Below, one piece after another: positions 1-42,677 of a DNA stretch of 64,000 bases; the stretch's first letter is position 1; the number at the start of each line of letters is the position of its first letter. The stretch lies in NCBI RefSeq assembly GCF_026210795.1, contig NC_089444.1, positions 1,726,501 to 1,790,500 on the forward strand, read 5' to 3'. The notes beneath the pieces were generated by a model, which was not told the origin of the DNA, ran no database searches, and saw nothing but the letters and a program-made list of their open reading frames with translations. The position numbers were made by a program, and so were the translations under genes. The stretch comes from Rhizophagus irregularis (taxonomy: Eukaryota > Glomeromycota > Glomeromycetes > Glomerales > Glomeraceae).

Positions 1-9
1 TTACTTCAG

Positions 10-1090: not shown

Positions 1091-1456
1091 TGATAACTAA
1101 TTATGCCATATAGCAATCCTTCTTGTTTTGGCTAATTTAAATTTTCCCTTTTAAATTGTAAATCAAACATTATGTCTTACTATTGTACGTCTTGTAACAG
1201 ATAGTATAATAATAAAGTAACCCAGATGTTACTTTTATAATTATACTAATTTAAGCTTATTAATTTTATTGTGCCATTTGTTTGGAAAAATGAAATTAAA
1301 ATTCAACACACACTTCCCGGTCAAAAGTATTCGACCACCCTAAAAATTAAAAAATAATTAAGAAAATAGAATTTTTTAATAAAATTTTACATTTATTTTA
1401 AAGTATGAAACATTAAAAACTATTTAAAAGTGTTTTTTTTACTTAAATAGTCTGTA

Positions 1457-1581
1457 TAAATATTTAAGGGTATTGCTAAATCTTTGCACCAGCATCAATG
1501 AGCAGAGTTTATGACATTTTAATTCTGCCCAAAATTCTACTTTAATTACCAGTAGTGATGTTTAGCAATACTCAATATTTA
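1457..1581. repeat. Small palindromic MITE-like element
   Basis: The left arm (TAAATATT..GGTATTGCTAAAT) is the imperfect reverse complement of the right arm (TTTAGCAATACTCAATATTTA), about 24 bp each, enclosing about 75 bp. A related motif (TTAGCAATACTCAA) recurs near 29940-29955, so this is probably a dispersed family. No clear TSD beyond AT-rich flanks. Confidence 0.45.
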
Positions 1582-1827
1582 AAAAATGTGAAAAATTTTA
1601 TTTTTAACTAGATTTTTTGACTAAAAAATACCTTGTATTTTTTGTTAAGAAATCTGCCTTTGAAAATTGTTAAGATTTAGTAAAAATAATGGCTTTATAC
1701 ATATAAAATTTGCAAAAATTTATAATAATTTCAACTAGCCCAGTGGTACCAACAAAAATTTTATGATTATGTGACATACTTTTTTAATCATCACAAGCAG
1801 CACATCCTACCAGATTTTCACTATTTA

Positions 1828-2015
1828 CAGTCAGACTTCCATAATTACACATCCCTTGGGACTATATGCATAATTTTCAAAATAGTGCATTTAAAGAGGA
1901 TATGCATTTATAGAGGTAAAATAATTAGAGATTGAAACTGAACCAAAGAGTGGATTTAGAGAAGGTATACATAGTAAATGCAATTATGAAGAGTGCAATT
2001 ATAGAGGTCTAACTG
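1828..2015. mobile_element. 188-bp pogo/mariner-type MITE with TA target site
   Basis: The left end CAGTCAGACTTCCATAATTA pairs with the reverse complement of the right end (CAGTTAGACCTCTATAATTG). Both sides are flanked by TA, the usual target of Tc1/mariner/pogo elements. There is no coding capacity. The termini are of the same type as those at 14624-17970 and 23399-28660. Confidence 0.65.
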
Positions 2016-4444
2016 TATATTTATCTGAAGAACTTAGTTTTTTTTTGAGTAAATAAAATCTTATTTGTCACTCATTATTTGTTACTGTTTATTTCACATG
2101 TTCGTATATAATACTGTAATGCCAGCTTTATTGTAAAATTTTTGTTAGTGCTGCTAAGATAGTTAATAATTTCTCAATAACTGCTGATTCAATTTTTTTA
2201 ATAAATAGCTTTTTATATCTTAAATTTAAAAATAATGTATATTTTTGGTTGAATATTTTCTACTGAAAAGTATATATAAAAAATCATTTTTGAATTTTTT
2301 AAAATTAAATTTATAGTTTTTCTTTAATTAATAAGTATAAAAATCATATTTAGACACTATTTAGACTGATATTAAAGAATGTATTTTCATTTTTTAATCT
2401 ATTAAAATTCCTTCTGGTTAAGCTAATTATTATATAACTTTTATTTTTCAAATGAATGAAATTATATATAAGTATTTATAAGAAATTTATATTTCAATAT
2501 AAGATCATGCTGGGTTGCTAGTATTCCTTCCTATATTGGATATTTCAAACTATATTTAAATAAAACTTTTAGACCTAAAAGTGTAACTTGTAACTTATTT
2601 TAGAGATATTTAAGAGTTTTCAATTAAAGCAAATATTTTTTAAGAAAAATTTAAAATTATAAATAAAATATTAATTTATTATTTATTTTTCTTGCAATTT
2701 TTAGTAATATAAATATTATTGAAAAATTCTTTTTTATTAGCTTATTAGAAAACTTATTATATATTTTATATACTACGGTATTTTACTGAAGATATTCTTT
2801 AATTAAAAAAAGTATTAAACAATTAATAAAAATATTTTATTTTACAAAAATACAGTAATATTTTTAATGATTTTTGTAATATTTTATTTTATTTTATTTT
2901 TTTATCACATTATTTTCTTGTAATAAACTAATTTGTTATCAAAATTTTATTTTAAAAATTCATAACTTTTTGTACAATGATCAAATACAAAATTAAAGAA
3001 TTTATTTTTGTTCATTTTACGGAAAATGGGATCCAAATGTTTAACATTTGGTTTGTTCAGAATCAGATTTTATTATATAAATAATATTTTATTAGTATAT
3101 TAAACACTAATATACTCTTTATTTATTTATTTTTATATAAAAGTAATTTTTAATTATATATTAATTAACTCACTGGGTACATCCACAGAAAAATTTTATG
3201 TTTACGTAGGGTAAAGTTAAAAAAAAATAAAAAAAATTATATATTAATTATATTATACAGTAATAATTTATTATATTAATTATTATATCCCGATTTTACT
3301 TTTAATATTTAAGAAACTAAATAATAATATTAAAACAAAATTGGCGGGCCAAAATTACACTTCTTCCATTATACCAACATCTTATTCCTTTTTGTAGGTT
3401 TTAGATGTTAATTTTAATGATAATTTTTAGGACAGGTTTTTCTTTGTTTTATTTTTTATATCAGGGTGGGTTGCATCTGGGCTGGCCTTGTGCTAGGTAG
3501 GAGTGTATCTTGGTCCTTTATTTCCAGTGTATTATGTATGCTTGTGTAAATCCTTTGTACAAGACGCGTTTTTTACCTATCTAATAAGGCAAAATACTAG
3601 ATAATTAATGTAAATTTAATATAATATAAATTAATAAAATATTAGTTATAATAATATATATTAAATAATGAAATGATAATTGCAAGTAAAAAATGCGCAG
3701 TAAAAATTAAACGTACATTTTAAAAATTCGATATACATATATATATATAATGTGTGGATTAGTTTAAAAATAATCTATCTATAAATTATTATTTTTGGTA
3801 ATAAATTTAAAACTATAATTATATTCCTGAAAACAAGGACTTTTTATACTGTGTAAAAAACACCTGCGGATAATCTACCGATTATCTGTTTAATTCCGCT
3901 TCTGCATTGATATTGTATATCATACATTAGAGAAACAAAGGAAAATTCAGACAAGACAGGAGTGAATACTGGAATAGCACAGGTAACTACAGAAAAATTG
4001 AGAATTAAACAGTTTTTATTGTTTCCGAAAATTTGAATTGTGCATAATGAGATGCACTGAACGCCTTTACTTTATTATACAGAAGATACAAGATCAATAT
4101 ATCCCAAAGTCATGGGACAACGAGAGATTTACAAATTTAGATACCTTTTAGGAAGAATGGTGGCGTGATTATAGACCACCAATTTCTTAATCTAGCATGA
4201 TTGAAACTTTCTTGGTTTGACGTAAATTCCCTAATTTTAAAAACTTTCACGATATTTTCACGGTCTTATTGCTATACTTTATATTGTCCCGCAAATCTTC
4301 TCTCAAATTTCTTTGCAGTTCCCTCCCCCTTCCCCACTTTCTTATACAAATTATCCCCACAAATTCCACTTTGTAGTATCCTTTGATTTTATCTTTAAAT
4401 TCTCCTTTTTTCAATTTTTCCCATAAATTTTTTTTTTCAGTCTT

Positions 4445-5578
4445 ATGTCTCCAATTTTTGATAATCCTTTTAAAAATCCGTCTTCAAAATATCTTGTGCC
4501 CCTCATGCGATTCTTAAACTTACCAACAAAAACTACTACTTCTTCACTTTCTTCTACAACAGGAAATGGAAAACCACCTACTAAAACGAACGATTGTATT
4601 TATGCAAAGATACTTGTAAAACTTACTCAGGAATTTGGTGACGACTTACTTGGGTTATTTGCCTACGGCTCCAGAATTTACGGGAATGCTTGTCCACATA
4701 GGTAATGTTTAAATTTTTTTTTTTTATATTTTACCTTTTGAATTACCTCTTTTAAAATTCATATTCTAATACCGATTCTCGATTTTTTTCTTTGACACTC
4801 AATTCATATACCATAGTGACGTAGACGTTGACGTTTTTATTAAATCTCAAAGAAAATGTCGGCGGAATATCTTTATCGATGGATTGGAGGTAATTATGAT
4901 AAAAAATATATATTTATATTATTTTATATAATATTATTTATTTTAAATGATAATTTTAATTCATTACATTTATTCGATTAAAAGGTTGAAATGTTTATTC
5001 ACCCACCAGAACATGTTTTCCACATCTTGACATATGATTCATCCGGTATTATTTTGCGATGTTATACATTTGGCCGTATTATTTATGACCCAAATAATAT
5101 AATTCCACAATTACAAAAATTGGCTAAACTTCGCTGGGAGGCAGGACCACCAGCCCTTGAACCAAAGGACAATTGGCGACCACGTTATGAAATCGCAGAT
5201 TTATTACGTGATTTGGAAGATAGTGACTTTGTACGTGATGAAGCTACAGCACATTTCCTATTGGTAAAACTAGTAGAACGACTGGCGCGCATTCAAGAAC
5301 GCTTATGTCGTCGTTGGCCTGAAAAATTGAAACGTTGTATTGAAGGTTGGGAAAGTTGGGATTCATTTGGAGGAAGATTGGCTAAGCGTGCACTAAATTC
5401 AAATTTAAAATGGGCCGAAAGATTAAGGTGTGCGAGAGATTTAGCAAAATATGTTCTTGAACCAATTGGGGGTGTCATGCCAATTGAATGGAAAATGGAT
5501 TGGGAGGAAATACCTCCTGCGGAAGAATCATTTAGAAAATTAATAATACCAAAAATAGAAGTTTTCATATCCTCATAA
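4445..5578 (+). CDS. Nucleotidyltransferase-fold (NTP_transf_2-like) protein
   Basis: Three exons, 4445-4701, 4817-4889 and 4985-5578, join in phase to about 307 residues. Residues about 70-125 carry the nucleotidyltransferase signature: a GLFAYGSRIYG glycine-serine motif, the acidic pair in SDVDVDVFI, and a third acidic strand in GLEVEMFIHP, which is created exactly across the second splice junction. The C-terminal 180 residues are helical and charged, as in the all-helical substrate-binding domains often attached to this fold. The substrate cannot be told from sequence; family members move nucleotides onto proteins, RNA or small molecules. The three catalytic acidic positions look intact. 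The ATG at 4445 follows a pyrimidine-rich stretch ending in CAG, so an upstream non-coding or short coding exon is possible. Confidence 0.75.
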
Positions 5579-7267
5579 AATAACAAAGAGAGAGATGTGG
5601 GGCATGTACAGCAAAGTTATACAAATTTTAATTTTGGCATCTGTTATTTACACGGAATTGATTTCTTTGTATCTTTATTATTATTATCATTTATTTACCT
5701 TTCTCTCTCTCTCAATATAGACAAATAATTTTATTTATTAATTAATATATTTTATTTCTCCATTTTTCCACCTCCTTTCCACATTTTCCCCACATTTTTC
5801 TTATTCAATACTTCACGCAAAAGCTAAAGTTGCATAGAACAATATATATATAAATATATATGTATATTTATTTGTATAGAATATATAATTGATTTTTTTT
5901 TTATGCTGCATAATTAATAAAATTAAAACATTTTGAAACAAATTTCAATTTTTTAAAATTTTTTCCTCATTGATTAACAGAGAAATTGGTGGGGTGAAAG
6001 GAAATCATTTACTAAACCAAATTTAGTATGATTAGAATGATCTCATGAGATTTAAATTGTTACCAATTTTATAAACTAATCGTCAATACGTAACCCCACA
6101 CTTTCTTTCCGGTATAGACCCGAATTCTGATTTAAACTATATTTATAGCATGAATAAATTCATAAATGAATAAATAATGCATGACCCGCTTACAAAATTA
6201 AAAATACAATAAATATATTGTCAGACCGATCGTTATCAACGGCAAACCCAAATATTACAACGACGCTTTATATAGCAAATTGAATATAATGGTTTATAAA
6301 ACATCATTGTTAATTATTAAAAAAAAATGTACTTTGTAGATTAATTGCTTTTGGTATCACAAAGTGCAACTTTATTAGTTAAATCTTTCGTTTCCGTTTT
6401 TATTTGTTATTAGAATTAAAGGAATTAACTCTTTTTTTTTTTAAACAGCTTTTAAAATTCTTTAATTCTCTGCTTTATATTATAAATAAAACTATTCATG
6501 AATTTCAAATTTATTCATTATTAAACAATAATAATAAAAAAAAAGAAATAAAATTACCAGGTTTATATTAGAGTTTGGATCCGTTGTCCGTTTTGTAAAA
6601 TTGTAATTTACGGTTAAGAATAAATGGGTTTTTTGCTAGGAAAATGACCTTCTGAGACTAGATTTTAGATTTTAAGTAAATGGTAATTGAAAATTCTATC
6701 AAAAATTAAGACCAATAAAATTTGTTTCTAAATTTATCTACATCACGTGATAATGATCGCTATGTAGATCATTTCCATTTTTGGCGATACCCGTTCCACA
6801 AAAAATAATTTCCTGAAAATAAAATTAACCTTTTTGGAAATTTGTGTAACATTTTCTACATAAAAGGAAATGATCTGCAAAAAAAATTTTGGCCGGAGTT
6901 ATAAATTTGGCCCGAATTATAATATCCACTAGTGTAGGCCAAAACGGAATTGTTATTATCAAATCACATGACACTATTTTTTACCTGATACGAATTTTGT
7001 TAGGAAAATGACCTTCTGAGATATTGTTACACAAGTTACACAAAATTTGTATATTTAATTTATTAACCAATCAGAAAATGCAATATCACATCATTGTACA
7101 AAAAATTCTTGGCAAAATAAATTTAGCGTTAAAAAATTTTTAAAAAATAAAATAAATATGCAGAATGATGTTTTATAACTAAAATAGTATTCTTTTTGCA
7201 CCTCATATTTATAACCATAATTTGCCCCCTTTTTTTTAATAATTTTTTTTTTTAAAAAAAAACAATA
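5579..7267. other. AT-rich region without genes; one direct repeat
   Basis: No exon is supported. The string TAGGAAAATGACCTTCTGAG occurs at about 6637 and again at 7001 in the same orientation, so 6630-7020 may be a duplicated or transposon-derived block. The segment up to 5700 is probably the 3' untranslated region of the nucleotidyltransferase gene. Confidence 0.5.
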
Positions 7268-7359
7268 ATGACGTTAAGACCATTTTATAATTTAGTTCAG
7301 TTAGGTTTAGATGAATATGAAGATAATGAACTAGTATTAAATATTGTACATGACTTAAC

Positions 7360-8737
7360 AGGACCCCGCTTACTTCTAATAGAGGTCTCCGAAAATATAA
7401 GGTAAAATTTATATTAAAAAAAAATTTTAGGTCTCTTAATAGATAAAGGTAAAATTATATATATGACAAATAAAGGTCTCCGGATATGTAAGGTAAAGTT
7501 AAAATAGGTTTCCGGTTTTATAAGGTAAAATCAAATATAAGTTTACAAATGTTTCGGTAAATAATAAGGTAAAATTGTATATAAAATTTAATATTTACCT
7601 TATATATACTAATTTGAAATATTGTACAACAATTATTACAATATTTGGTAATATACGTTTTATAATTTTTTCTCAAAATAAAAAATTTATTCTCTTCTTT
7701 ATACTTGTAAAAACCATTTTATATTTTTAATTTTATTTGCATTAGCACTATCTTTTTGAAAATTATTACAAAAATTAGCTTTTAAAATATAAAAATTCGT
7801 ACAGCAATTAGCAACTTCAGAATTTAATTTCAGTACTTTGGTTAAATCAAATCATATTTTACTATCTAAGAAAGTTGTTTAGTAAGGTCGAACTACTTAT
7901 ATTTGAATTTTTATAGCAGTTGGAGTAATATTTATTGCATACGAGCATTTTTTTATTTTAATATTAACTTAAAATTTACGTTTTTTGTTTATTAAATTCG
8001 GAGCGTAATTTGGGCATTTTAGTCAAATGAAATCACCTTTTTAAGCTTAAGTAATATTGTTCGGCGAGATCGAAACTACCTGAATATTAATTTTCATAAG
8101 AATCAGTTTAATATTTACGGAATACGAGCAATTTTCGCACTTTTAATTTTTTTTTATTTTCCCGATCAGTGATTATAGGGCGTAATTTGGGCACTTTGGT
8201 CAAATGAAATCACTTTTTCATGCTTAAGTAAAGTTGTTCGGCAAGGTCGAAAATATTTAGATAAATATTTTCATAGCAGTTGGATTAATACTTATGGGGT
8301 ACGAGCATTTTTTCATAATAATACCAATTACGAATTTATTTTTTTTAAAAAAAAATTAATTAGATTTTTTTAAAGAAAGTAAGTGAATAATAGTTTTGAA
8401 GTAAAGTTAAAGATGTGTGTCTTTAAGATTTTTTTTATAGTATTTTTGTAATTCAAAGTACTTTTTTTACTAATAAAAGTTATTTATCTTTAAAGAATAA
8501 GAATTAAACTTAGTAAAAATAAAAAATTTTTAAAATTTATTGTAATGATTATAAAATATTTTGTTTATTTAATATTTAAAAAAATTTAGGTCTCTGAAAA
8601 TCTAAGGTAAAATTTAATATAATTTTAAAAGGTCACTATATATATATGGTAAAATTATGAGATAAGAAAGGTTGGTAAAATTACTAGTAAATCTGAAATT
8701 TTGCCCGGAGACCTTTATTAGAAGTAAGCGGGGTCCT
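7360..8737. mobile_element. Non-autonomous hAT-type element, copy A1 (1,378 bp)
   Basis: Terminal inverted repeats AGGACCCCGCTTACTTCTAA / TTAGAAGTAAGCGGGGTCCT are flanked by a perfect 8-bp TSD, GACTTAAC (7352-7359 and 8738-8745). It has no ORF of note. Subterminal copies of GGTCTCCG..AAGGTAAAATT occur repeatedly at both ends and may be transposase-binding sites. The middle holds three degenerate tandem units (about 7800-8320) with the motifs TTTGGGCAYTTTRGTCAAATGA, GTTCGGCRAGGTCGAA and ACGAGCA. A nearly identical copy lies at 47997-50043. The 8-bp TSD points to the hAT superfamily. Confidence 0.85.
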
Positions 8738-9000
8738 GACTTAACCCAATTTTTTGAACAACAAAATTGCACATGTCGTCATTCTAAAAAGCAAAAGGAT
8801 TTGCGAACTTGTTATGAAAAAGTTGGATTTAAACATTTTTTTGAACGATATATTGAATTAAAAAGTTTAGATAAAAAAGAATTAGAGTTAGTTATCAAAG
8901 CTCAACTTATGGTATTTGAAATAACTAATAAAAAATCAGATAATACTAATTCAAATACATAAAGATATAGATATTGTTATAATCAGGGTTGTGGTAGTAC

Positions 9001-11328
9001 TAGGGTGTCCAGGATGGGTTGATCACGATTTTATCACGATTTTGGCAATTTTTTTGCGATTTTATCACGGTCACGATTTTTAACAAAAATTTGCGATTTT
9101 CACGACTTTTTAATTTAATTGGATAATCTTTATTGATTTCAATTGGACGATCAATAAAATCTTTTTTTTTAGCCGAAAAAATTTCTAATCCTAACCATTT
9201 TTGTTCTAATTTTTTTTTCTATAAAAATGGTTGCTCCACATGTACGTTTGTCACAAAGTGCAGAGTATCGAGAGAATTATATTGTACAAGGCAATGTGCT
9301 GTGGTGTCGATTTTGCAATACAGGAGTTGAAGCATAAAAGAAAAGATACTGTAGATAAACATCTTCGTACAGTAAAACACCTTAAGAATAAAACTACCGA
9401 TATTAATTCGCCAATTCAAAGAACTATACCATCATTTGAAAATACAATAAGTGAAATAGAAAGAGTTAATACTGATGTAGTGGCTGCTTTCACATCTGCA
9501 GATATTCCTTTAGAGAAGATTGAAAAATTAAAACCATTTTTACTAAAATATTGTAAAAACGGTATGAATTTTATATTTTAAATTAAACTAACTTTACTTT
9601 ATTACAATAATTTACTTATATAATTATTTCCATTTGCATTTTTATTTTTATAGGAGGCTTAATTACTGGAGCAAATCAGCTTCGTGAAAAATATCTTCCA
9701 TTATCGTATGAAATAGAATTTCAAAAATTGAAGACAGTTATAGTTAATAAAAGTATTTGCTTAACAATTGATGAGACTACTGACCGTTGTGGTCGTCACG
9801 CTGTTAATATTTTATTTAGTTTTGATAACCAAACTAAATTAGCTAGAACAAATTTTATACCTAATGTTAATGCCTCAATGATTTCTCAATTTGTTATAGA
9901 TACAATTCATCTATATAATATTCCCTATCAAAATGTTATTTTTTTTATATCTGACAATGCTTCATATATGAAATTGGCATATTCCCATTTATCTCCTTTT
10001 TTACCAAAAATGAAACACAATTGTTGCCTGGCACACATCCTTAATCTAATTGGTGAAACTTGGATTGATTTTCAAAAATTTGAATTAGTTGACAGATTGG
10101 TTTCTAATTTCAAAGCAATTTTTGTTTATAATTCACAAAGAAAAATTCGTTGGAAGGAGCATTTACTGCGAAATAATGTTGAATCTCCTACTTTAGCTCC
10201 ATTACCTGTGAAAACACGGTGGAACTCCTGGTTTTCATTTTTATATTGGATCAAACCTATATATCCTCATGTAATTACATTTATTAATACAGAATATTCT
10301 ATCAATCATGATTCAAAAGCTATCCGTATCTTCAGACTTTTTGTGAACATCATGATCATGTTTCATACGTTGAAATTTTTATATTTTTTATTACATACAA
10401 TTGTGGCAGGTAAGAAAATAAATTATTAGCTATAACTTCATTAATTTTATTATACTTATCATTTATTGAATTTTATTCGATTGTTTAATGATTTGGAATT
10501 CTTTAAAATACGAAACAAAGTATATCTCCCTTTGTTTATTCACGAATAATAAACCTTCAAGCTTTTCTTTCATCATAAGAAGGAATCCTCCAGTTTCAAA
10601 TGAAATAGAACAAATTTTTAATGAAAGAAATTATGATAGAGAACCATTTATCTCATTATTTTCTAAGGCGTTTGTGTTGGCTTATGAAAAGTGTGAAAAA
10701 CATATATCTAATCATCCAGCTTTACCATTATTTAGAGCGATACAATGCTTTGATCCAAGATTTATTCAGTCCAATACGGCACATCATAATATGGGAGACT
10801 ATAGAATTATTGAAGAATTTCAATTTCCTATGGATATTTTAATACAAGAATGGGGTATTTACTGTGGATTAAATGAATCTGTTGAAGAATTTGAAAATTT
10901 AGATGTATATTGGCGAGGTAAATCACATTTATTACCAGAACTTAGTTCATTAGCTTTGAGATATATATGGTTACCAGTATCTGGTGTAGATATTGAACGT
11001 AGTTTTTCTAGTTACAAAAGTATATTATCGGATAGAAGAGTGGCACTTAAAGAAGAAAGCATTAAAATGCTTAATTTTCTTTATTTTAATCTGAATGGTA
11101 ATATTGATATTAATTTGCTAGTTAGGGAATAGTTTATAGATGAAATTTTTGTAAAGACGAAAAATTGTAAATAAAATAATAAAAATAAAAATTGTAAGTT
11201 TTTTAATGTTAATTCTGGTCGAAATTATGTTAATTTCGGCCAAAATTATAATCGCGATTTTCGCGATAAAATCGTGAAAATCACACGCGATTTTTAGACC
11301 ATCACGACAACCCATCCTGGACACCCTA
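9001..11328 (+). mobile_element. hAT transposon (2.3 kb) inserted in a MITE
   Basis: Terminal inverted repeats TAGGGTGTCCAGGATGGGTT / AACCCATCCTGGACACCCTA are perfect over at least 20 bp. The 8-bp TSD GGTAGTAC is perfect (8993-9000 and 11329-11336). Subterminal repeats of TCACGATTTT occur on the left and ATCGTGAAAATC on the right. It carries its own transposase gene (9227-11132). Confidence 0.9.
9227..11132 (+). pseudogene. hAT transposase, near-complete but frameshifted
   Basis: The N-terminus from the ATG at 9227 has a BED-type zinc finger: LWCRFC, then the H..H pair in KHLRTVKH. A single extra base near 9331 shifts the frame between them. An intron (9562-9654) joins to the catalytic core: TIDETTD (first Asp), ISDNASYM (second Asp), CCLAHILNLI and TRWNSW. 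A second intron or decayed stretch (about 10411-10580) leads to the C-terminal dimerisation domain, ending LPVSGVDIERSFSSYKS..LSDRRVALKEE. This domain order is diagnostic of hAT transposases. Whether a spliced, full-length product could still be made depends on the 9331 shift. Confidence 0.8.
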
Positions 11329-13045
11329 GGTAGTACACCTGTACTAGCAAAATTCTAGTACGTACTGTACTAGCAAAAATTTCGTACAAGTACTAAGTAT
11401 ACTGTACTAATACAATTATTACTTTTTAGGATATAATTTAACCATTTTAGGTAGATATCATATGATCAATATTGTTTATATTTATAAAATTAACCAATAA
11501 AATTTATTAATAGTATGTACTAAAATTATATTTGTACTAAATTTTCAAGTACAAGTACAGTACTTAGTACTGTACTATACTGTACTAGTACTGTACTAGT
11601 ACAATTCATAACCCTGGTTATAATGCTTCTTTGCCTTTATGTAAACCAGCATTTTTAAAATTATGTGGAATTAATGATTATTTACTTGGTACTTTACAAA
11701 ATCATTTACATACAGAAGGATTAAGTGAGCGTATTCATGAAAATATAGGACGTATACCTATGACTGACAATAGAGTCTTCCTTAATTCTGAGATTACATT
11801 TCCATTAAAACAATTTTTAGTTCAATATAGCTGTATTCATGGTTTACCTTCTCCATTACGACATAGAAATGATTCCAATACATTTATTTATCTTCCTACT
11901 GATAGAACATATACTTCTGTTTATAAAGAATACAAAGATTATTATTATACTGAATATGATGAATCAAACCAAATAATTTCTTATTATACTTTTCAGAGAC
12001 TTTGGATTGAAATGATGCCATATCTTAAATTTCAAGCACCAGCAAGTAATCTTTGTGAAATTTGTGAGGGATTTAAGGCTAAAATAAAAGTAGCAAAATC
12101 TGATGCAGATGAACATGAAAAAGTTCAAATTCAATATGAGAATCATCAAAATTAGCAAAACTTGAACATCAGCATTATAATGATAATATTGAGAAAAGTA
12201 AGAATGATTTAACTATTGCACATGTATGCTATGACTGGGCGCAAAATGTTTTTATACCATATTCACCACAACAAGTTGGTTCCATTTACTTTAAATCAGC
12301 TTCTTCTGTGCATCTTTTTGGAGTTTGTAAAACTGAAGGAGGGCAAAATCATCAATTAAATTTTGTAATTGGAGAGAATGAACTTCCAAAAGGTACTTCT
12401 AAAAGTGCTAATACAACGATAAATATGGTATACAATTCACTTCAAAAATTTGCTCAGAATGGAAAAAAACATTTACAAATTACTTGTGATAACTGCACTG
12501 GGCAGAATAAAAACAATTTATCGCTTTGGTTTTGGTCCTAGTTGGTTATGCTTAATTGGTATGAAGATATTACGGTTAATTTTATGATTCCTGGTCATAC
12601 AAAATTCATATGTGACTCATTTTTTGGTCATATTAAAAAAGTATATTGGAAGCATAAAGTTAATACTATTAATGATGTTAAAAACATTATAAATAATTCA
12701 TCAAACGGTAATGAAGCAATTTTATATGATAACGGAATAAATTGGAATTGGTACGATTTTAGTGCATTTTTTAAGAATCATTTTGTACCTCTCCCTAATA
12801 TAACACAATTCCATCATTTTCGTTTTAGCTCTGAAGATATTGGTAAAATATATGTATCAAAAGAATCCGGTGGTGTAGAATTATGTTATAAATTATTAAA
12901 AAGTGATAATTTTAATAAAAATAGTAAACCCGATTTAATTACTACTGTATCTTTAACAGAAGAACGACAAAATTACTTATATTCAAAAATTTGACAATAC
13001 GTTGATGAACCTTACAAAGATGAGTATTGTGCAAAACCAAAATAA

Positions 13046-14623
13046 TTATAATTTAAAAAATAAAAAAATAAAAATTTAATTTATTAAACTTTAAAATGAT
13101 TATAAATAATTCAAGTATGAAATAAAATTATTGCTGTAGTATAAAAGAAACGTTAATAACGTTTCTTAAAGTTAATTTTGAATAAACACCCCTATTACAA
13201 TTTACTCAAGATCTTCAAGACTATTTCTAAAAAGAAAGAAGAAAAGGAATATTAATATCATTCCTAGAGAAAAAAACAAAAAAAAGAATTTACTTACCAT
13301 TTCAAAGTCTAAGGCTAAAATCCAGTCCAAGAAGGTCGTCCCTAAAGAGGAAGAAGAAAAAGAACGTTAATATCGTTCCTGGAGTAAAAAAAAAATAAAA
13401 AAAATAATTTGCTTACCATTTCAAGTCCAAGCAAGGCCAACATCCATTCCAAGAAGGTCGTCCCTAAAGAGGAAGAAGAAAAAAAGCGTTAATATTATCG
13501 TTCCTAGAGTAAAAAAAACAAAAAAAAAATAATTTACTCACCATTTCATTTGCAAGGCTAAAATCCATTCCAAGAAGGTCGTCCCTAAAGAGGAAGAAGA
13601 AAAAGAACGTTAATATCATTCCTGAAGTAAAAAAAAAACAAAACAAAAATAATTCGTTTACCATTTCAAAGTCCAAGGCCAAAATCTAGTCCAAGAAGGT
13701 CGTCCCTAAAGAGAAAGAAGAAAAGAAACGTTAATATTATCTTTTCCGGAGTAAAAAAAAACAAAAAAAAAAATAATTCACTTACTATTTTAAAGTTCAA
13801 GGCCAAAATTCAGTCCAAAAAGACTGAAAATATAAAAAAAAGTTTCAAAATATTAAAAAAAAAATAGATGATCAGATTCGATCAATCCAACCAAATCTAT
13901 AAAATAACTGCAGCTACTGTGGCTAAAATAACGATTTAAATTTTTTAAAATCGTTTAATGTAAATTTTATTAGTATGCCGATCATTTCTGAATCTATTTT
14001 TAGATTTTGGTACTAATCGTTACACAAAAATTGAAAATCAAATTGCTCGTTCCGGTAATAAAATAATATGTTACAAAATTTAATTACATAAAGTTTATGT
14101 ATTATATATTCATATAAAACAAAAATCTCAATTTTTATAAAAAAATTTCAGAACCTCATTTTCCTAGCAAAGAACCCAAATGTCTTTTAAATTACAGGGG
14201 CGATTAAATTATACGGACACTTTTCAAAGTGAAAAAACTTACATATATATTACTAAAATGAAAATAAAAAATCAAGCTAAATACATTCATTACAACTTTA
14301 ATTATTAATTCGAATAAAAATAAAAATTCATTCATTTTTATTTGTCACAATAACTGCTTTAATTCTATAAGATATGCAGGTTATTTACATTTTATAATAT
14401 TATACTTTCAACTACTTTATCAAAGTATTTATAAAAAATGTAAAATATTTAATATTATATGAGATTATATGCTCAATATAAGGTTTACAAAGTTCACTAA
14501 TTTTTTTAAATTTAAAATTGTATCTTAAAATATTTCAATATCTAGTAATTGGATTTTATGATCTTAGATTCATTAAAATTGTCTTATTAAGACAAATTTG
14601 TACTTTTAAGATCAATACAAATA
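13046..14623. other. Intergenic region; holds intron-like array 1
   Basis: Apart from the array at 13200-13850 there is no supported gene. A hairpin, AAGAAACGTTAATAACGTTTCTT, lies at 13147-13169. 13860-14620 is AT-rich and featureless to inspection. Confidence 0.5.
13200..13850 (-). repeat. Intron-like tandem array 1 (about 121-bp units)
   Basis: The motif GAAGGTCGTCCCTAAAGAGG recurs at 13331, 13453, 13574 and 13695 (spacing 122, 121, 121). Weaker units lie at both edges. On the - strand each unit reads as a pyrimidine tract TTCTTCTTCCTCTTTAG, a mini-exon of 43-47 nt (13299-13341, 13417-13463, 13542-13584, 13662-13705) ending GAAATG, and a GTAAG or GTGAG donor. The intervening introns are 75-80 nt and hold a small hairpin, GAACGATATTAACGTTC, about 30 nt before the acceptor. 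The splice-site reading is inference from sequence; the tandem repeat itself is seen directly. Confidence 0.75.
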
Positions 14624-19601: not shown

Positions 19602-20664
19602 TAGAGCTCCGAACAGGTCAGCCAAATTCAGGTAACCTGACCTGACCTGACCTGAAATTCAGGTCAGGTATGAAGATTGACCTGACCTGATTGACCTGTT
19701 GACCTGAAACTATTGATTCTACTATATAATAAAAGTGAGTTGCAGTATTGCGATTCACTTTTTTATATTGATTTTATATAATAAAAGTGAGTTGCAGTAT
19801 TGCGATTCACTTTTTTATATAGATTCTATATAAAAAAAGTGAGTTGCGGTATTGCGATTCACTTTTTTATATAGATTCTATATAAAAAAAGTGAGTTGCG
19901 GTATTGCGATTCACTTTTTTATATAGATTCTATATAAAAAAAGTTAGTTGTGGTATTGCGATTCACTTTTTTATATTGATTCTATATAATAAAAGTGAGT
20001 TGCGATATTGCGATTCACTTTTTTATATTGATTCTATATAATAAAAGTGAGTTGCGATATTGCGATTCACTTTTTTATATTGATTTTATATAATAAAAGT
20101 GAGTTGAAATATTGCGATTCACTTTTTTATATTGATTTTATATAATAAAAGTGAGTTGCGATATCGCAACTCACTTTTTTTATATTAATTCTATATAAAA
20201 AAAGTGAATTGCAGTATTGGGATTCACTTTTTTATATGATTTTAATATAAAAATGTTGAATCGCAATATTTCGAGAAAAAACTTTGCGAAAACGTTTTTT
20301 TCATAATATTATATTAAAAAAATGTTTCGTGACGTTTTTTTTTTTGATATTTCAATAATAACGTTGCGAAAACATTTTTTTCATAATGTTATATTAAAAA
20401 AAAACCTTTTGCAATATTTTTTTTCAATATTTTAATAAAAAACGTTGCAAAAACGTTTTTTTTCATAATATTATATTAAAAAAAAAAGGTTTGTACTGTT
20501 TTTTTTCAATACTTTAATAAAAATAGTCCTGAAATTTTTCAGGTTTCAGGTCAGGTCAGGTCAAACAGACAACCTGATATAACCTAACCTGACCTGACCT
20601 GAAAAAAAATTTCAGGTCAGGTTGATCAATTAACCTGACCTAACCTGACCCATTCGGAACTCTA
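19602..20664. mobile_element. Non-autonomous hAT-type element carrying a satellite (1,063 bp)
   Basis: Ends TAGAGCTCCGAACAGGTCAG and CTGACCCATTCGGAACTCTA are inverted repeats. The 8-bp TSD ACTTTATA is perfect (19594-19601, 20665-20672). Both subterminal zones consist of repeated ACCTG/CAGGT pentamers in opposite orientation (CTGACCTGACCTG on one side, CAGGTCAGGTCAGG on the other). The core holds a 52-bp satellite and repeats of AAAACGTTTTTTTCATAATATTATATT. Confidence 0.85.
19725..20235. repeat. 52-bp hairpin satellite, about 10 units
   Basis: Each unit holds AAAAAGTGAGTTGCGATATT followed by GCGATTCACTTTTTTATAT. The arms AAAAGTGA/TCACTTTT can pair around a TTGCGATATTGCGA core. Eight units keep the GCGATTCAC core; one has GCAACTCAC and the last has GGATTCAC. 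Confidence 0.8.
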
Positions 20665-34253: not shown

Positions 34254-34599
34254 TTAGCATACATTATCGGAACTTGAGAAATTCAAAGTACTGGACGCAG
34301 TTATACTACTATTATGAGATGTAGCAAATGAGCTAGAATTAAAAAGGTATGTAGGTGAAAGAGAATATGGGTTTTGATCAGGTGGACAATTGTTTGATGG
34401 TACCGTAGTAGAATTTGAATAGTACGGTACGGTGCTTAGGAAATGAAATTGGTAAATTTGTAGGAGATAATATATCATAAGAAGAATCAATGGAAGTTTG
34501 TATTGATTGTAAAACGGATGGTAAAGGCACAGGTCGAAGGGGCACCATTGTCCAAAATTCAAAAAATGCAAATTCCACATTTTTCTGGAAAATGGTGGG

Positions 34600-35480
34600 A
34601 AATTGTGGAAAATGCTGCATTACGCTGAGCAATTTTTTGGAATAGCATTATTACAACATTGTCCGATTTAGCAAATTTTATGAAAATTTGGGAAAATGCT
34701 ACATTATATCTCAAATGTAACATTTCGTAACATTTCGTAACATTGTTATAACATTGTCATTAAAATCAAATTTTGCTTTTTTTTTGTCAAATGTTTCAAT
34801 TTTCTTGCAAACTGGCGCATTTTTATGAAAATGCCACATTTTATCTCCAATGCGATATCATTGTAACAACATTTCATAAAATTGTTATAACATTGTCAAT
34901 TAAAATCAAATTTTGTCAAATATTCTGATTTCCTAGCAAATGGTGCATTTTTTTATGAAAATTCTATATTTTTTGTCAAATGTTGCATATTTTTAGCAAA
35001 TTTTATGTTTTTTGGTCAAATGTTTCACTTTCGTCAGAATGTTAAAATGTTACATTTTTTTTTTGAAAATGCTCAATAATATGGCATTACACTGGAAAAT
35101 GTAGCATTTCACCAAATTACACTAAAAAGCATCACAATTATCACATTTTTTGGAAAATTCCACATTACATTAAATTATACTAAAAAATGTAGCACTATAC
35201 TAAATTATGCGGCATTGCACTAAAAAATATCACAATTACACAGCATTACACTAAAAAGTACCACAATTATCATATTTTTTAAAAAATTTCGTGTTATGTA
35301 ACATTATGCTAAAAAATGCGGAATTGCACTAAAAAACACGGAATTGCACTAAAAAATGTGAAATTGCACTAAAAAACGCAGAATTGCATTAAAAACGCAG
35401 AATTGCACTAAAAAACGTGGAATTGCACTAAAAAACACAAAAAAAATACTACAATTACACAGGATAATGTAGCATTACAC
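34600..35480. repeat. Left subterminal repeat zone of the CACTA-like element
   Basis: Short degenerate units alternate: ACATTTTATCAAATG-like words up to about 35060, then GCATTACACTAAAAAATGTA-like words. From 35310 to 35440 there is a tight 24-bp repeat GGAATTGCACTAAAAAACAC. Similar words appear inverted in the right zone. Confidence 0.7.
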
Positions 35481-35654
35481 TTAATTACATTAAAATTGTT
35501 AGGATAATTTTTATTTATTTGTAAAATTACGGACATTATTAAATTTATAATATTTATATTCTAACGCATTATTTAACATTAAATTCACATTGTTAATATT
35601 AACAATGTATCAACACGATGTGTTATTTAATTTATACGAAACCTTACTACTGAA

Positions 35655-35765
35655 GACTCCCTCTTTTTGTCACTATAAACAGGCGGAGGGAGCAGCAATG
35701 GCTCTCCCCCTATAGGTACTTTATGGCTTCTACCTGTTTACAGAGGAGGGGCTTTTTGTAAAATT
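35655..35765. repeat. G/C-rich inverted segment
   Basis: CTATAAACAGGCGGAGGG on one side and ACCTGTTTACAGAGGAGGGG on the other share the inverted words TAAACAGG/CCTGTTTA, with CTCCCTC/GAGGGAG pairing nested nearby. Function unknown; it stands out against AT-rich flanks. Confidence 0.45.
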
Positions 35766-35890
35766 ATTAGATAGATATATATATACATCTATCAAAAAAA
35801 TTATAATAAAAAAAAAAAATTTTTTCGGGGAAAATGCCCCTATTTATATAAAAATATATATTACGTGTATCATGTGATATTACTAATAAT

Positions 35891-35930
35891 TACCGCAGCA
35901 GGCGCAGCTGAAGCTGCGCCTGCTGCGGTA
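35891..35930. repeat. Perfect 19-bp-arm GC-rich palindrome
   Basis: TACCGCAGCAGGCGCAGCT, a GA centre, then its exact reverse complement. It is by far the most G/C-dense short word in this neighbourhood and could extrude as a cruciform or form an RNA hairpin. Confidence 0.9.
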
Positions 35931-35984
35931 TAGCGAAAAAAAATTAAGTTTTTTTTAGTAAAAGCTTAATTTTTTCTCACGATC

Positions 35985-36180
35985 TTTCAATTTCTTTCGC
36001 CTTTTCCCATTCCCATTTCGTTCCCTTCCCTTTTCTCTTTCGTTCTCCCCTTCCTATTTCATTTTCCCTTTTTCTCTTTCATTCTCCCTTTTCTCCTTCG
36101 TTCTCCCTTCCCATTTCGTTTTCCCCTTTCTCTTTCGTTCTCCCCTTCCCCTTCCCTTTTCCCTTCCCGGAATTGTCTTT
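35985..36180 (+). repeat. Pyrimidine-rich leader of array 2
   Basis: About 190 bases of almost pure C/T on the + strand, made of repeats of CTTTCGTTCTCCCCTTCC-like words. It ends just before AATAATG and the first GTAAGTTTCG. It could be a promoter-proximal tract or a giant pyrimidine tract. Confidence 0.75.
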
Positions 36181-36193
36181 CAGAAAAATAATG

Positions 36194-37995
36194 GTAAGTT
36201 TCGAAGTGAAATGCTTCAAAACTTTTTAAAAATTGTGTTTTTAATATCTTTTAGGAACTGACTCCTATACTTGTTTTTTTGTAGATATTTAACGTATTCA
36301 ATTTCGGAAAATGAGTTTTGCCGTAAAATTCGCATTATTGAGAAGGGTCCCAAGATATGGTCTATTCATTCTTAGGTCGATGCGTGGAATTCTTATGTTT
36401 AGTAGGCGAGGTGAAGGAAAACCTTCGAAGAGGAGTATGGTTTGTCTTCAAGTTCGGTAAACCATGAAGTTTTGAAGCATTTGCTTCGATATGGTAAGTT
36501 TCGAAGTGAAACACTTTCACTTCGAAACTCAATTTTTTTTTTAATTTTTTATTAGGAAACGTTTAGAAAACATTTCCTTTATCCTTTTTGTAGGATCGGA
36601 GTGTTCGGAACGTTAGGTAAGTTTCATTTCATTATGAAACTTTTTAAAAAAATCTTTTTTTAATTCTTTTTGTAAGGAAACGTTTCTAACGTTTCCTATT
36701 TTTTTTGTATAGGTCTTTCGGTATTCGATTTTGGAAGTGGAATCAGTAAGTTTCAAAGCGAAACTTATTGATTTTTTTTTTAATTTATTTTAGGAAACGT
36801 TTCTAACGTTTCCTTTCTTCTTTTTTGTAGGATTTTTGATGCTTTTACTGAAACGAGGAAATGAAATGATGGTAAAGTTTCGAAGCGTTTCGCTTCGAAA
36901 CTTTAAATTTTTTTTTTACTTTTATAAGGAACGTTTTTAACGATCCTTTATTTTCTTTTGTGTAGGTTTTCGGTATTCGACTTCGGGAAGTAAAGAACCG
37001 AAAGGGTAAGTTTCGAAGCGTTTTTCGCTTCGAAACTTTTTTAAAAAAAATATTTTTAAAATTTTTTTTGTAAGGAAACGTTTCTAAGTTTCCTTTTTCT
37101 TTTTGTAGGAACACCGGACGTTTGGATGATAGAGTTCGAAACGAACCGGTGAGTTTCGCAACATTGTGTTGCGAAACTTTATTTTTATTTATTTTTTTTT
37201 AAGAAACGTTAACTAATGTTTCTTTCTTTTACTTTTTGTAGGTTCCGGACGTCAGGATGATGGAAACGACTGGTAAGTTTCGCAATGTTACATTGCGAAA
37301 CTTAATTTTTATTTTTTTTATTAAAAGAAACGTTTATATTAACATTTCTTTTTTACTTTTTGTAGGTTCCGGACGTTGAAATGAATGAAACGACCAGTAA
37401 GTTTCGTAATGTTACATTGCGAAACTTAATTTTTATTTTTTTATTAAAAGAAACGTTTATATTAATGTTTCTTTTTTACTTTTTGTAGGTTCCGGACGTT
37501 AGAATGATGGAAACGACCGGTAAGTTTCACAATGTTACATTGCGAAACTTAATTTTTGTTTTTTTTATTAAAAGAAACGTTTATATTAACGTTTCTTTTT
37601 TATTTTTTGTAGATTCCGGACGTTGGAATGAATGAAACGACTGGTAAGTTTCGCAATGTTACATTGCGAAACTTAATTTTTGTTTTTTTTTATTAAAAGA
37701 AATGTTAACTAACGTTTCTTTTTTACTTTTTGTAGGTTCCAGACATTTAGATAATGGAAATTGAAACGAACTGGTAAGTTTCGCAACATTGTGTTGCGAA
37801 ACTTAATTTTTATTCTTTTTTTTTTAAAAGAAACATTACCTAACATTTCTTTTTTACTTTTTGTAGGTTCCGGACGTTTGGATAATGGAAATCAAAACGA
37901 ACCGGTGAGTTTCGCAACATTGTGTTGCGAAACTTAATTAATTATTATTTTTTTTAAGAAACGTTAACTGACGTTTCTTTTCTTCCTTCTTGTAG
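36194..37995 (+). repeat. Intron-like tandem array 2, 13 donor/acceptor units with covarying hairpins
   Basis: Donors (GTAAGTTTC, GTGAGTTTC or close variants) begin at 36194, 36494, 36617, 36746, 36872, 37006, 37149, 37273, 37397, 37520, 37644, 37774 and 37905. From the second unit on, each is followed 85-103 nt later by a pyrimidine tract and TTGTAG-type acceptor. Mini-exons between them are 23-41 nt, typically GTTCCGGACGTTGGAATGAA then ACGACTG. Each intron has hairpin 1 directly after the donor (for example GTTTCGCAATG/CATTGCGAAAC) and hairpin 2 near the acceptor (GGAAACGTT/AACGTTTCC or AAGAAACGTT/AACGTTTCTT). Hairpin 2 contains a CTAAC or TTAAC branch-point-like word. Joined mini-exons hit stops in all frames, so this is not a protein gene. 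Splicing is inferred. Confidence 0.85.
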
Positions 37996-38149
37996 GTTTT
38001 CACCAGCTTTTACTTTGGCATCGGACATTAAATACATGAATGAATTAGAGGTGTGGATTACCCATGGATCATTGGATATCTGATGAATATAGATTAATAT
38101 AGATTCTCATCGTTAAATAATAATTGTGCATTTGTTAATAAATAATATT

Positions 38150-39090
38150 GTAATAAATTATGTAAAATTATTAAATCAATGTTTTAAATTGTTATAACGT
38201 TTACACTAAATTGTTTAAAATTATTACTAAATTTCACTCAATTGTCCGAAATTATTGCAAAATTTCACTAAATTGTCTCCGAAAATGTTGTGTTTATACT
38301 GTTTACACTCAATTGTCCAAAATCAGTAAAACATTTTCACTCAATTGTCTAAAATTATCCTAAATTTCACTAAATTATCAAAAGTTTAGCCAACATTTAC
38401 CGAAAAAATGCAAAATTCACCACAATTTTCCACAATTTGTATTACGTTTGCACAACATTGCTGAAAAATTCACCTAAATTTTCAACAATTTATATAACAT
38501 TACTAAAAATACACTACAATTTACCACAATTTGCATTACGTTTACATAAAATTACTAAAAATTTAACTAAATTCACCACAATTTGCATTACGTTTACATA
38601 ACATTACTAAAAATTTGACTAAATTCACCACAATTTGCATTACGTTTACATAAAATTACTAAAAATTTAACTAAATTCACCACAATTTGCACTTCGTTTA
38701 CATATCATTACTAAAAATTTAACTAAATTCACCACAATTTGCATTACATTTGCATAAAATTACTAAAAATTTGCCTAAAATTCACCACAATTTACATTAC
38801 ATTTGCATAAAATTACTAAAAATTTAACTAAATTCACCACAATTTGCACTTTTTGCATATCATTACTAAAGATTTGCCTAAAATTTCCCACAATTTAATG
38901 ATAATTTACTGAAAAATTTCTCAACATTTGAATTAGGAATTCTGTAGGAATTCCGCCATTTTGACAAAATTTGCCAAATTGTAAGACCTCCATTATCCCA
39001 AAATTGTAACACAATTTACCCCAATTTACCAGGATAATTCTCAATTTGCCAGAAAAATTCCAGGCAAATTTTGCGACAATGACATCTGTT
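38150..39090. repeat. Right subterminal repeat zone of the CACTA-like element
   Basis: Between 38480 and 38860, CACCACAATTTGCATTACGT followed by TTACATAAAATTACTAAAAA and TTTAACTAAATT recurs with a period of about 60 bp. Looser related words fill both sides. Confidence 0.75.
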
Positions 39091-40484
39091 CGACCTGTGA
39101 GGCTGAATATAGTCATTTCGCGAATAAGATTGCATGATTGTTGATTGAGTGTCTTGAAGTGGTAATGCAGTTAAAGGTTCATATGGATTTTTGATATTTT
39201 TAATGTTTTCCTAAATTAAGTATCGTTAGAAAGAACCGTATTTGTAATTAATTACTTTAATAAATTTATAATACCTTTGCATCCCGAATATTTTTTCAAA
39301 TTCTTTTTGTGCTTCTTGTTTGTTCAGAAGGTGAAATATTTCGTTCAGTAGTTTTAAGAATCCTACTTGGTTTTCTTGGGTTTGCTGATGATTTCAGAGG
39401 TGCCCCATTATTACCTTTATGATAATCAAGTTTTACAGGCTGGAACGGATCTTTATTATTCTCATTTGGTCGGGAGTATGATTTAAATATCGATATACCT
39501 AAATAAAATTAGCTAGATTAATTCATTAGAACTACTAAGCTTAAATTCTTTTTAAAATACTACCATGAGTTTTATATAAATCAATTATTTCTGAATAAGC
39601 AGCTTCAACATTACCATTATATATCACTAGATTTTTTGATTCTGCGGGTAATACTCTTTGCTTATTTTTAAAATATTGTACCAACTCCTTTTTAACTTCT
39701 TGCTTAAACAATAATAGATCCGAAACTCCAATTGATTCTTTAAAAATTGACACTGCATGACAGTGTTTGCAGACATCTCTGAATGGACCATTCCATACAT
39801 AATCAAAACATGTACATTCTCCTGTTTTTATATTGATTAAATAATATTCGGAATGTTCCAAATAATTTGGGATCTTGTTTAAGTGCTGTTCCATTAGCTT
39901 GTTATGCAACAGAATAAGCAAGTTTAAATTATACTTATCCAGCCAAATTAATTCATTGTTATATGGAGATTCTAATGCAAATGGATTATTTCCCTTTTTT
40001 ACATAAAAATAATCATCAATACCAGTGCATTTAACGTAATCCAACAGAAATAATAATCTTCCATGATTTATTCTGCGCAATTTATCTGATGCGATATGCG
40101 TAGCTTGTGATTCCTATTAAAAAAGAACTATTTTTATAATAAATAAATAAATAAATATAAAATGTAGTGATGACAATACCTGTTCAATTGTTTGCATATC
40201 AAATATTGTTGCAAGTCCAGCTTCAAACCTTAAATTGCCGCATTTATCTGTTAAATTTTCTCGAAGTAATTGAATGCCATACAATCGTTCAATAAAATTG
40301 ACAACTGTTCTTGTACCACTATATTGAGACTCAATTGTACGATTTAGTCTTTCCGTGTAATTATTTGTTGTCATGATATGCATTATACTTGGATTTTCAA
40401 GAATTCTTCCAGCATCTATAAAACTTAAAATCCATTCGTTACAAATCCAATTGTTATAGAGATCTTTAACTAATTTGTTTTTTA

Positions 40485-40781
40485 AGGACCCCGGATATCT
40501 AATATAAAGGTCATAATGGACTTTTGGCCAAAAACACCCCTTTTTGCTGAAACTCAAAAAATCGTTTTTTGTAAATATCTCAGCATCCAGTAATTCAATT
40601 TTAATGAACTTTTTTTTATTTTGTAGCCCTCATTTAGCTCTACAATTTAAAAAAAAGTTCATCAAAATTGGACCACTGGATGCCGAGATATTTACAAAAA
40701 ACGATTTTTTGAGCCCCTGAAAAATGGGCCAATCTGCCGAAAGTGTGACTTATGACCTGTTTTGGAGATATCCGGGGTCCT
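40485..40781. mobile_element. 297-bp palindromic hAT-type MITE
   Basis: Ends AGGACCCCGGATATCT / AGATATCCGGGGTCCT; perfect 8-bp TSD GTTTTTTA (40477-40484, 40782-40789). Most of the element folds back on itself (AAATCGTTTTTTGTAAATAT against ATATTTACAAAAAACGATTT). It interrupts the MULE transposase gene in phase. Confidence 0.9.
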
Positions 40782-42677
40782 GTTTTTTAATTCCTGTGTA
40801 ATATCCAGCGAATTAATAAATTCTGAATATAATGGTCCTAATTCTTTAGCTAACTCTATAGATCTACTTCTACCAACTATTTTAAATGCCAATGCTATTC
40901 GTATCTATAAAAATAAATTTATAAATATAAATAAATTATAACATAAATTCTTAGAATAAAAACGTGTATACCTTAATGGCCATGGTACTTTCCAATTATT
41001 CAGGTTTTCACCGAATGTCTGCATGATATGAAACCAACACAAAATTGTGCGGTCTACCACATTTTCGGTGGCTATTTTAGTTGGTCGATGTTTATCTATC
41101 ATTACCAACAGAATCCAATTGTGATTTTTGGCACATTCTGTAATCCTTTGAAAACCTTTTTCATTTGGCAAATCTTCATAATACCATTTATGTTCACAAT
41201 TTGAATCATTGCATAATATATTATTTTTCAATAATTTCAACGCAATACTAGTTGTCCAGTTATTTTCTTTATTAGATAATCCTAAATAAATACATAAATA
41301 AATTATCCACAAATTTAAAGTAAAATTTCAATTTTTTTTCTTACCAAATACTAATGGTGTACCAAATCCAGCATCATTTTCGGTTACAACTGCAAGTACT
41401 GGTGCGTGATCACTATTTAAGTCATACTTGCTATCAACTCCAATACAGTATTTTCCATACCTTTGAGCATTTTTTAACCATAATTGATTTGATAATGTTA
41501 ATTGATAAAAACGTTCTGAACTCGTTTCTGATGATGATAAATTGGGTTGTTGATAATAAAGAACATTTCCCTTTGGTTTAAGTATTTCGTTAACTAAATA
41601 GTGCAAGATTGTCAATGGTCCTGCATTTTCTTTAGTTTGTCTATCATCACGCACCAAAAACCTATACAATTTTTTATCCTCACATAATTCCTTTTGATTA
41701 CGTAATGCTTCTCGCAAATCTTCTTCGTTAGCACCATTGTAAGAAGCCAACATTTTTGCTTTAATATTTTTTGTTGTTTTATGGTCTGCTCTACGGTTTA
41801 TTATAATATTATCACGTACTTGCCTAGTTAAACTCAACCGGTTAATTTGTGGTGTATGTGTTGTAAGAACATTGGATGGTAAATGGCTATTTAAAACTTT
41901 TATTTTAAGAGGACATGGACGATCAATTTTAGATAAATATACTTCTGAAATGATGCGTACTTTGCACAAATGCATATCATTATAGTTTTTTAGATTATTT
42001 GGTAATGCTTCATTTTGACAACCTTCTATGCATTTACCAATTCCACCACATTCATATTGACAAGAATTACCATCTTCAGCACAATACATTACCCAAGACC
42101 AGCATAGTTTATCTTTTTTTACTCCTGCTTCAATTTGTTTAACTAGTTCCTCTCCCTTTTCTGTTAATTTAACTATATCATCAATCCGGTTAGTTGATTT
42201 TGTTTGACCAGTCTTTGTTCGCCATTCAATAAAATCAACAGCTCCTTCAACACGTTCAATTGTGATAATTCCTTCTTTAACTAATTCAGGAGTTTTCTTT
42301 TGACTTTGACTTTTTAAACGAATATTTTTAAGCAAAGGATGATTTTTTAGATAATATTCTGCAGTCCGACCAAATGGAACATTAACAGAATTTTCAGCAG
42401 TATTATATTCAATAAAATTTTCAAAGTTGCTATTATTCATTGTATTATATAAAATTGTGTAAAAAGAAAAAGTCAAGAGTCGCGTCATATAATAAAATGT
42501 AACACATATTATTTATGTAACGCAGTTATCACTAATACTGTGCTACTTATCACATAATTTTTTATCACATTTCAGGTCAAGAAAAAAATATTTTTGTCAT
42601 ACATAATCATGCATATTTTGATTGGGTCAAGAAAGTAACACGAGGAGGGCCAAGAAGGTAATTTTTGCATTAGTGAC

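Follow-up and report, generated by a model that had tools for sequence, protein, structure and literature searches.

Here we describe a 4,572-bp mobile element of Rhizophagus irregularis, element A, which carries a tandem array of 13 intron-like units whose putative splice signals lie in small local hairpins. By its sequence features, element A is a non-autonomous DNA transposon of the CACTA/EnSpm type. Our confidence in this anatomy (transposon, intron-like units and hairpins) is very high. We further consider it probable that the array is the cargo of the transposon, a non-coding multi-intron gene that may protect the element. Element A occupies positions 34528-39099 of the window (the whole stretch of DNA analysed, 64,000 nucleotides with a G+C content of 27.9%), and its parts are as follows.

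34525-34527, unstranded: left target-site duplication, AGG
34528-34538, plus strand: left terminal inverted repeat, CACAGGTCGAA
34937-35436, unstranded: left subterminal tandem repeats, with units of 20, 40, 59 and 129 bp
35892-35929, unstranded: GC-rich palindrome upstream of the array, with perfect 18-bp arms and a 2-nt spacer
36002-36168, plus strand: CT-rich tract, the presumed promoter region
36194-36284, plus strand: intron-like unit 1
36285-36493, plus strand: 209-nt exon with a 49-codon frame, also found whole in four other loci
36494-37995, plus strand: intron-like units 2-13, with mini-exons of 23-41 nt between them
36593, 36712, 36830, 36965, 37108 and 37241, plus strand: ends of units 2-7
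37365, 37488, 37612, 37735, 37866 and 37995, plus strand: ends of units 8-13
37274-37304, plus strand: hairpin 1 of the unit at 37273, as an example, a 14-bp stem beginning within the donor
37323-37352, plus strand: hairpin 2 of the same unit, with a branch-site-like word at the loop
37996-38160, plus strand: last exon and AT-rich 3' end with AATAAA-like words, the presumed end of the transcript
38180-38896, unstranded: right subterminal tandem repeats, with a 52-bp unit and others
39089-39099, minus strand: right terminal inverted repeat, TTCGACCTGTG
39100-39102, unstranded: right target-site duplication, AGG

The array runs from 36194 to 37995 on the plus strand. Donors begin at 36194, 36494, 36617, 36746, 36872, 37006 and 37149 (units 1-7) and at 37273, 37397, 37520, 37644, 37774 and 37905 (units 8-13), which confirms the original prediction of about 13 tandem intron-like units. 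Ten of the 13 donors read exactly GTAAGTTTC, a string that occurs nowhere else in the window (chance expectation 0.56); the others are GTGAGTTTC (two) and GTAAAGTTTC (one). Introns in this array are 85-103 nt long and exons 23-41 nt, except for the first internal exon, which at 209 nt sets donors 1 and 2 300 nt apart. The predicted donor spacing of 123-143 bp therefore fails for the first two donors, and the predicted mini-exon length of 23-41 nt holds for all but this exon, which had gone unmentioned. The 209-nt exon has eight matches in the genome, five of which are the same exon in A-type loci and three of which are short, at 80-82%. The GC-rich palindrome at 35892-35929, just upstream of the CT-rich tract, stands out in an AT-rich genome and could be a promoter or a transposase-binding element.

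Copies of the array are numerous. With the array as query, the genome (32 contigs, 146.7 Mb) gave 187 matches at a minimum of 39 distinct loci, 40 of 520 candidates having been scored. In an alignment of 20 fetched regions with the window, both ends are readable in 14 regions and in the window copy, only the left end in L017, only the right end in L009, L016 and L028, and neither in L014 and L022. The 11-bp inverted repeat (CACAGGTCGAA and TTCGACCTGTG) bounds the A copies, with point changes in two of them, and all 15 copies with both ends in view are flanked, as judged by eye, by matching 3-bp target duplications (AGG, TAT, CAT, TCA, TTC, AGT, TCT, AAC, ATT, AAT, CAA, TTA three times and AAT) that display no visible sequence preference. 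A pattern for the family-A end matched the genome 153 times and its reverse not once. Among 100 ends listed, 74 form 37 convergent left-right pairs, of which 24 span 3.97-5.46 kb, three 6.2-7.0 kb and six 7.97-8.79 kb, and four are longer. No long coding frame was found in element A, where the longest stretch free of stops, antisense to the array, has 117 codons. Most differences between family-A copies change CpG to TpG or CpA, the pattern that CpG methylation would produce.

The nearest relative lies in another copy for 168 of 195 units, which fits an array that travels whole, and in the unit's own array for the remaining 27 (4.6% expected by chance). Unit number is 13 in the window copy and 6-18 in the other copies parsed, best explained by gain and loss of units in tandem. 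The original prediction had suggested an introner-like family, in which the unit inserts or copies by itself and happens to be piled up in tandem here. The introns are indeed alike in sequence and structure, excerpts of PMC8469720 describe fungal introner-like elements that also fold, and coding-like sequence lies beside the units at two of 15 seemingly isolated matches (L048 and L033). Against this, copies stop at the inverted ends of the 4.57-kb transposon, not at donors and acceptors with a target duplication of their own, and the units are mostly closest to units elsewhere. The 15 matches that looked isolated among those listed were fetched with 0.8-1.5 kb per side, and 620-700 nt around each were read by eye; every one adjoins further, partly decayed units and none stands alone in a host gene, so dispersed introners are not supported. 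We regard the introner reading as very unlikely. In L048, a mitochondrial-carrier stretch (129-575; PF00153, E 1.9e-13) sits beside hairpin introns, as do open frames without a Pfam match in L033 (minus orientation, about 1300-1500). Gene fragments are a known cargo of CACTA elements, and both coding pieces are probably host gene fragments caught by array-bearing elements.

The CACTA/EnSpm assignment draws on several features. The inverted ends start with CAC, reading CACAG and not CACTA in A, and ends of this type recur as CACAGGTCGAA in A, CACTGGTC[GA]AAAT in two further families, B and C, and CACTAGTCGAAATAAGGCAAATCGG in an element bearing the transposase tnp2. The target duplication is 3 bp in A (15 of 15 copies), B (CCT) and C (TGG), and subterminal repeats are present in A and, by eye, in B. 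A transposase-bearing partner with A ends was also found: C11:972207-980368, one of the six 8-kb pairs, is an 8,162-bp element with A ends and A-type right-hand repeats (88-91% identical; region L057). In the part read (974800-979500, 4.7 of 8.2 kb), it contains a 488-codon open stretch and a second one on the other strand. The end of the 488-codon frame, in region L056, matches the tnp2-type protein of L045 in two stretches, of 134 aa (43% identical) and 92 aa (51%). The L045 protein is itself assigned to PF02992 (56.8 bits), a domain with 155 matches in the R. irregularis genome and none in 14 control genomes; for the 488-aa piece, Pfam gave no match. Judged by this relative, which combines A ends and repeats with a tnp2-like frame, the array elements look like non-autonomous partners of a CACTA transposon. 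Neither a donor nor a branch hairpin pattern was found in the 4.7 kb read, so that the array would not be needed for movement in trans; judging from this part, it looks as if the array occupies the place of the genes in the transposase-bearing sibling, whose tnp2-like protein is a candidate mover of A.

Other transposase-related sequences were noted during this comparison. The tnp2 element C1:3408196-3415148 has perfect 25-bp ends (CACTAGTCGAAATAAGGCAAATCGG) and the duplication ATA, and is inserted in a B-like left arm. The Plavaka domain PF18759 has 123 matches in the genome, one of which (C10:2364072-2364668) lies in a 15-kb span between family-A ends; none falls in the six 8-kb A pairs. Another group of elements begins with CACAGGTCGAAATGCTAAAAATTGGC or close variants (22 of 23 pattern matches, with seven from the reversed control), for example at C1:4221998 and C14:4218535; by eye, no transposase-like frame was found in 5 kb of its members L040 and L041. 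Open frames are also present at 39541-42488 of the window (minus strand). We take them to resemble a MULE-type transposase with a SWIM-like motif; Pfam gave no match for the frames at 41328-42488 and 39541-40080.

Families B and C have inverted ends, 3-bp duplications and arrays of the A design, with different exons and stems. Family B is represented by a 3,876-bp element (ends CACTGGTCGAAAT..GACCAGTG, duplication CCT) that interrupts the A-type copy in L022 (4406-8281, minus strand), and the corresponding empty site is visible in the window copy at 36583-36585. Its array has 14 exons by a short pattern, unlike those of family A, and a similar array is present in L035. Family C (C1:4308923-4311847, minus strand, 2,925 bp, duplication TGG) has the last 18 bp of B and a third kind of array inside; its pattern has one further match in the genome. 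In L036, A-type arms (best arm matches about 85-89% identical) flank a strongly diverged array.

Each array unit presents the signals of U2 spliceosomal introns in order, that is, a GT donor, a branch word, a T-rich tract and an AG acceptor, and we treat the units as candidate spliceosomal introns with predicted excision. Near the 3' end of 320 array introns, CTAAC occurs in 159 and TTAAC in 125 (overlapping counts). GT[AG]A precedes 215 of 247 hairpin cores and its mirror image TTAC trails ten, the core having been sought without the donor in arrays that had themselves been found by donors. A genome-wide search for the predicted donor-hairpin unit (a donor hairpin and then the start of a branch hairpin) gave 508 matches, and one for a branch palindrome followed by GTAG gave 418; the reversed patterns gave none in either case.

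The exons could in principle belong to a protein-coding gene of repeated exons, similar to the SP7-type effectors of this fungus, which have a repeated make-up, and the 49-codon frame of the 209-nt exon would suit such a gene. Yet exon lengths do not keep to multiples of three (remainders of 0, 1 and 2 in 43, 98 and 80 of 221 exons), unit number varies, and for 20 of 21 sequences the longest spliced frame falls inside the range given by 50 shuffles; the exception, L014, with 90 codons against 64 in shuffles, is an array of another family. On the strength of the exon lengths and spliced frames, we rejected the coding reading, which is highly improbable. The spliced products look non-coding, in agreement with what had been claimed for the mini-exons.

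RNAfold was run on three window units and returned both predicted hairpins in each (z -3.3 to -4.2); hairpin 1 of the third contains a mismatch. Stems in the window are 14-15 bp long with a 3-nt loop, and those named earlier (GCAATG/CATTGC, GCAAC/GTTGC, GAAGCG/CGCTTC and GAAGTG/CACTTC) are all present. Closing arms of the form GTTT..AAAC are found in 284 of the 320 array introns, compared with 8.8% after shuffling. Around the branch site, the best stem has a mean length of 9.4 bp, compared with 5.6 in shuffles (279 distinct, one skipped; a T/A run rather than hairpin 2 accounts for some of these stems), and it reaches 8 bp or more in 240 of the 279. The best donor stem averages 10.4 in array introns, 5.7 in shuffles and 6.1 in seven candidate coding introns, a small set chosen from the window by a script on sequence, one of which (an AT run) scores 12. 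By contrast, the mini-exons (195, as a set) fold no better than shuffles, with a mean z of -0.13.

The pairing is retained as the sequence changes. Over 137 distinct inner stems, the number of consecutive pairs is 3.87 with the stem's own partner, 2.18 with that of another stem and 0.67 after shuffling. In the 59 distinct hairpins of the commonest length (of 153), selected by a pattern that itself fixes four of the 14 pairs, 92.7% of cells pair, and pairing falls to 27-45% when the partner is slid. In the same set, 75 cells are altered on both sides, against 26.7 +/- 7.6 in shuffles, which upholds the paired substitutions originally proposed; of five covariation measures, two (the number of pairs altered on both sides and the number of pair types) do not rise above shuffles. 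As both-sided changes separate only a handful of unit classes, the independent events are few. As judged by these comparisons, the stems covary between unit classes.

In a second geometry, seen in family C and in loci such as L052, L053 and L055, a stem joins the last bases of the exon to intron bases immediately downstream of the donor, and its loop holds GTAA or GTATTT (AAACCAAGTTTC/GAAACTTGGTTT, TCCAAGATTC/GAATCTTGGA and GGAATTTCGAAG/CTTCGAAATTCT). Nine loci scanned hold 23 such exon-intron stems of at least 7 bp, some of which are T-rich and likely products of chance. With 8 bp required, six such loci have the stem at 17 of their 62 donor-like sites, compared with 24 of 1240 when the flanks are shuffled. 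Outside arrays, the junction hairpin was seen at one of 27 and none of five donor-like sites in window positions 40000-64000, and the scan of positions 1-12000 gave no qualifying donor-like site. The window also contains a second intron-like tandem array (13227-13822, minus strand), with units of about 121 bp, in which the branch hairpin is present and the donor hairpin absent. Given the two geometries and this array with a branch hairpin alone, what recurs is a hairpin around a signal and not a given sequence.

Hairpins in such number might instead serve as a source of small RNAs, the original prediction having named a mirtron-like source, with the hairpins or excised introns feeding RNA interference, as a silencing trap or a regulator of the transposon. 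Stems of 14-15 bp with a 3-nt loop are short for a Dicer substrate. Rfam returned no match to the array at the curated cut-off (seven were below threshold, two of them to mir-722). The many hairpins per transcript and the large AGO set of the fungus (40 AGO-like genes, PMC11075540) speak for this reading, which the short stems and the Rfam result nevertheless make unlikely.

Selection on the units was assessed in six pairs of young copies, annotated from both members. At non-CpG-type sites, change is not significantly rarer in any part of the unit than in exons: changes are found at 2 of 374 donor positions against 14 of 1212 exon positions (p 0.39), and at 8 of 285 in branch words, which tend to change more (p 0.05). 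An apparent slower change in donors and stems, seen in 12 pairs with one-copy annotation, was gone with two-copy annotation of six of those pairs. Most change between young copies is CpG decay, and G.U and A.C defects in distinct stems (37:25) match the strand bias of exons (77:59) that this decay produces. With no measurable constraint in young copies, the existing copies look like neutral relics, and the case for constraint would come from comparison between unit classes and families.

These data give weight to a process at the DNA level, quasi-palindrome correction by template switching at replication, which would keep the stems without selection on RNA and make the spliced array neutral baggage of a successful transposon. 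The absence of measurable constraint between young copies, stem defects at the exon baseline and both-sided changes that separate unit classes all fit such a process. It is at odds with donor and branch hairpins that recur in families with unrelated exons and in two geometries, and with mini-exons that as a set are not palindromic. We consider it rather unlikely.

Under the reading that we favour, a non-coding multi-intron cargo, the CT-rich promoter would start a transcript that runs through 13 tandem exon-intron units (6-18 in other copies parsed) and ends in the short last exon. Each unit would offer spliceosomal signals (GTAAGT, CTAAC or TTAAC, and TTTTTGTAG); one local hairpin would hold the donor, and a second would have the branch site in its loop. 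Units and families would have pairing in common rather than sequence. What results would be an RNA that is non-coding and spliced many times, conceivably the spliceosome-targeting RNA of the original prediction. Repeated contact with the spliceosome may let the transcript pass as host mRNA, unlike an intron-poor transposon transcript, and the hairpins may make each unit spliceable alone, whatever the unit number. The likeliest role of the array in our judgement, offered tentatively, is to let the element be taken for a host gene and so escape silencing. It is likewise conceivable, with no more assurance, that a CACTA group has evolved a non-coding, spliceosome-engaging cargo of minimal introns with covarying hairpins in at least two geometries, the array acting as an anti-silencing RNA passport or decoy, in which case intron number would be under selection in an element without protein. 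Published work offers analogies for such a role: introns are reported to raise expression cumulatively in Cryptococcus (PMC3744415), HUSH is reported to sense long intronless transcripts (PMC7618375), and R. irregularis has the 40 AGO-like genes mentioned above (PMC11075540). Counting against the favoured reading, a donor within a stem could hinder splicing, the second window array has no donor hairpin, and young copies are without measurable constraint.

Element A resembles non-autonomous CACTA/EnSpm (CMC) elements in its CAC-starting ends, 3-bp duplication, subterminal repeats and tnp2-bearing relative, and differs in its interior, which is a hairpin-intron array with non-coding mini-exons instead of deleted transposase or filler. 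Some introners are themselves DNA transposons; there, the whole transposon serves as the intron, with splice sites formed at its ends. Both these and element A are DNA transposons that spread spliceosomal introns, but element A contains many introns and its ends lie far outside them. Fungal introner-like elements and symmetrical stwintrons, as described in excerpts of PMC8469720, are also families of stably folded introns alike in sequence; they sit singly in coding genes, whereas element A units are in tandem in a transposon, and stwintrons have one symmetry over the intron length, compared with two local hairpins in each array intron. According to parts of PMC11075540, CMC-EnSpm and Plavaka families are present and expressed in R. 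irregularis and about two-thirds of its transposons are unclassified; that catalogue classifies transposons by protein domains, which the array elements lack, and the word 'intron' is absent from its main text. Part of the unclassified transposons may be CACTA derivatives with an intron cargo. We found no report of hairpin-intron arrays in transposons among titles and abstract starts in the open-licence PubMed Central literature. If the arrays are spliced, they form a natural series of 6 to 18 introns (in the copies parsed), with two hairpin geometries, no coding constraint and the transposase-bearing sibling as a control, in which one can test both the shielding of a transcript from silencing by its introns and the way donor and branch-site structure governs splicing.

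Two further repeats were observed. Tandem arrays of 52-bp and 80-bp units, with a palindrome in each unit, lie at 19722-20523 of the window, with no relation to introns seen. A miniature element of 352 bp, almost entirely palindromic and sharing the 11-bp ends of element A, is inserted in the right arm of the A copy in L020 (positions 5661-6012).
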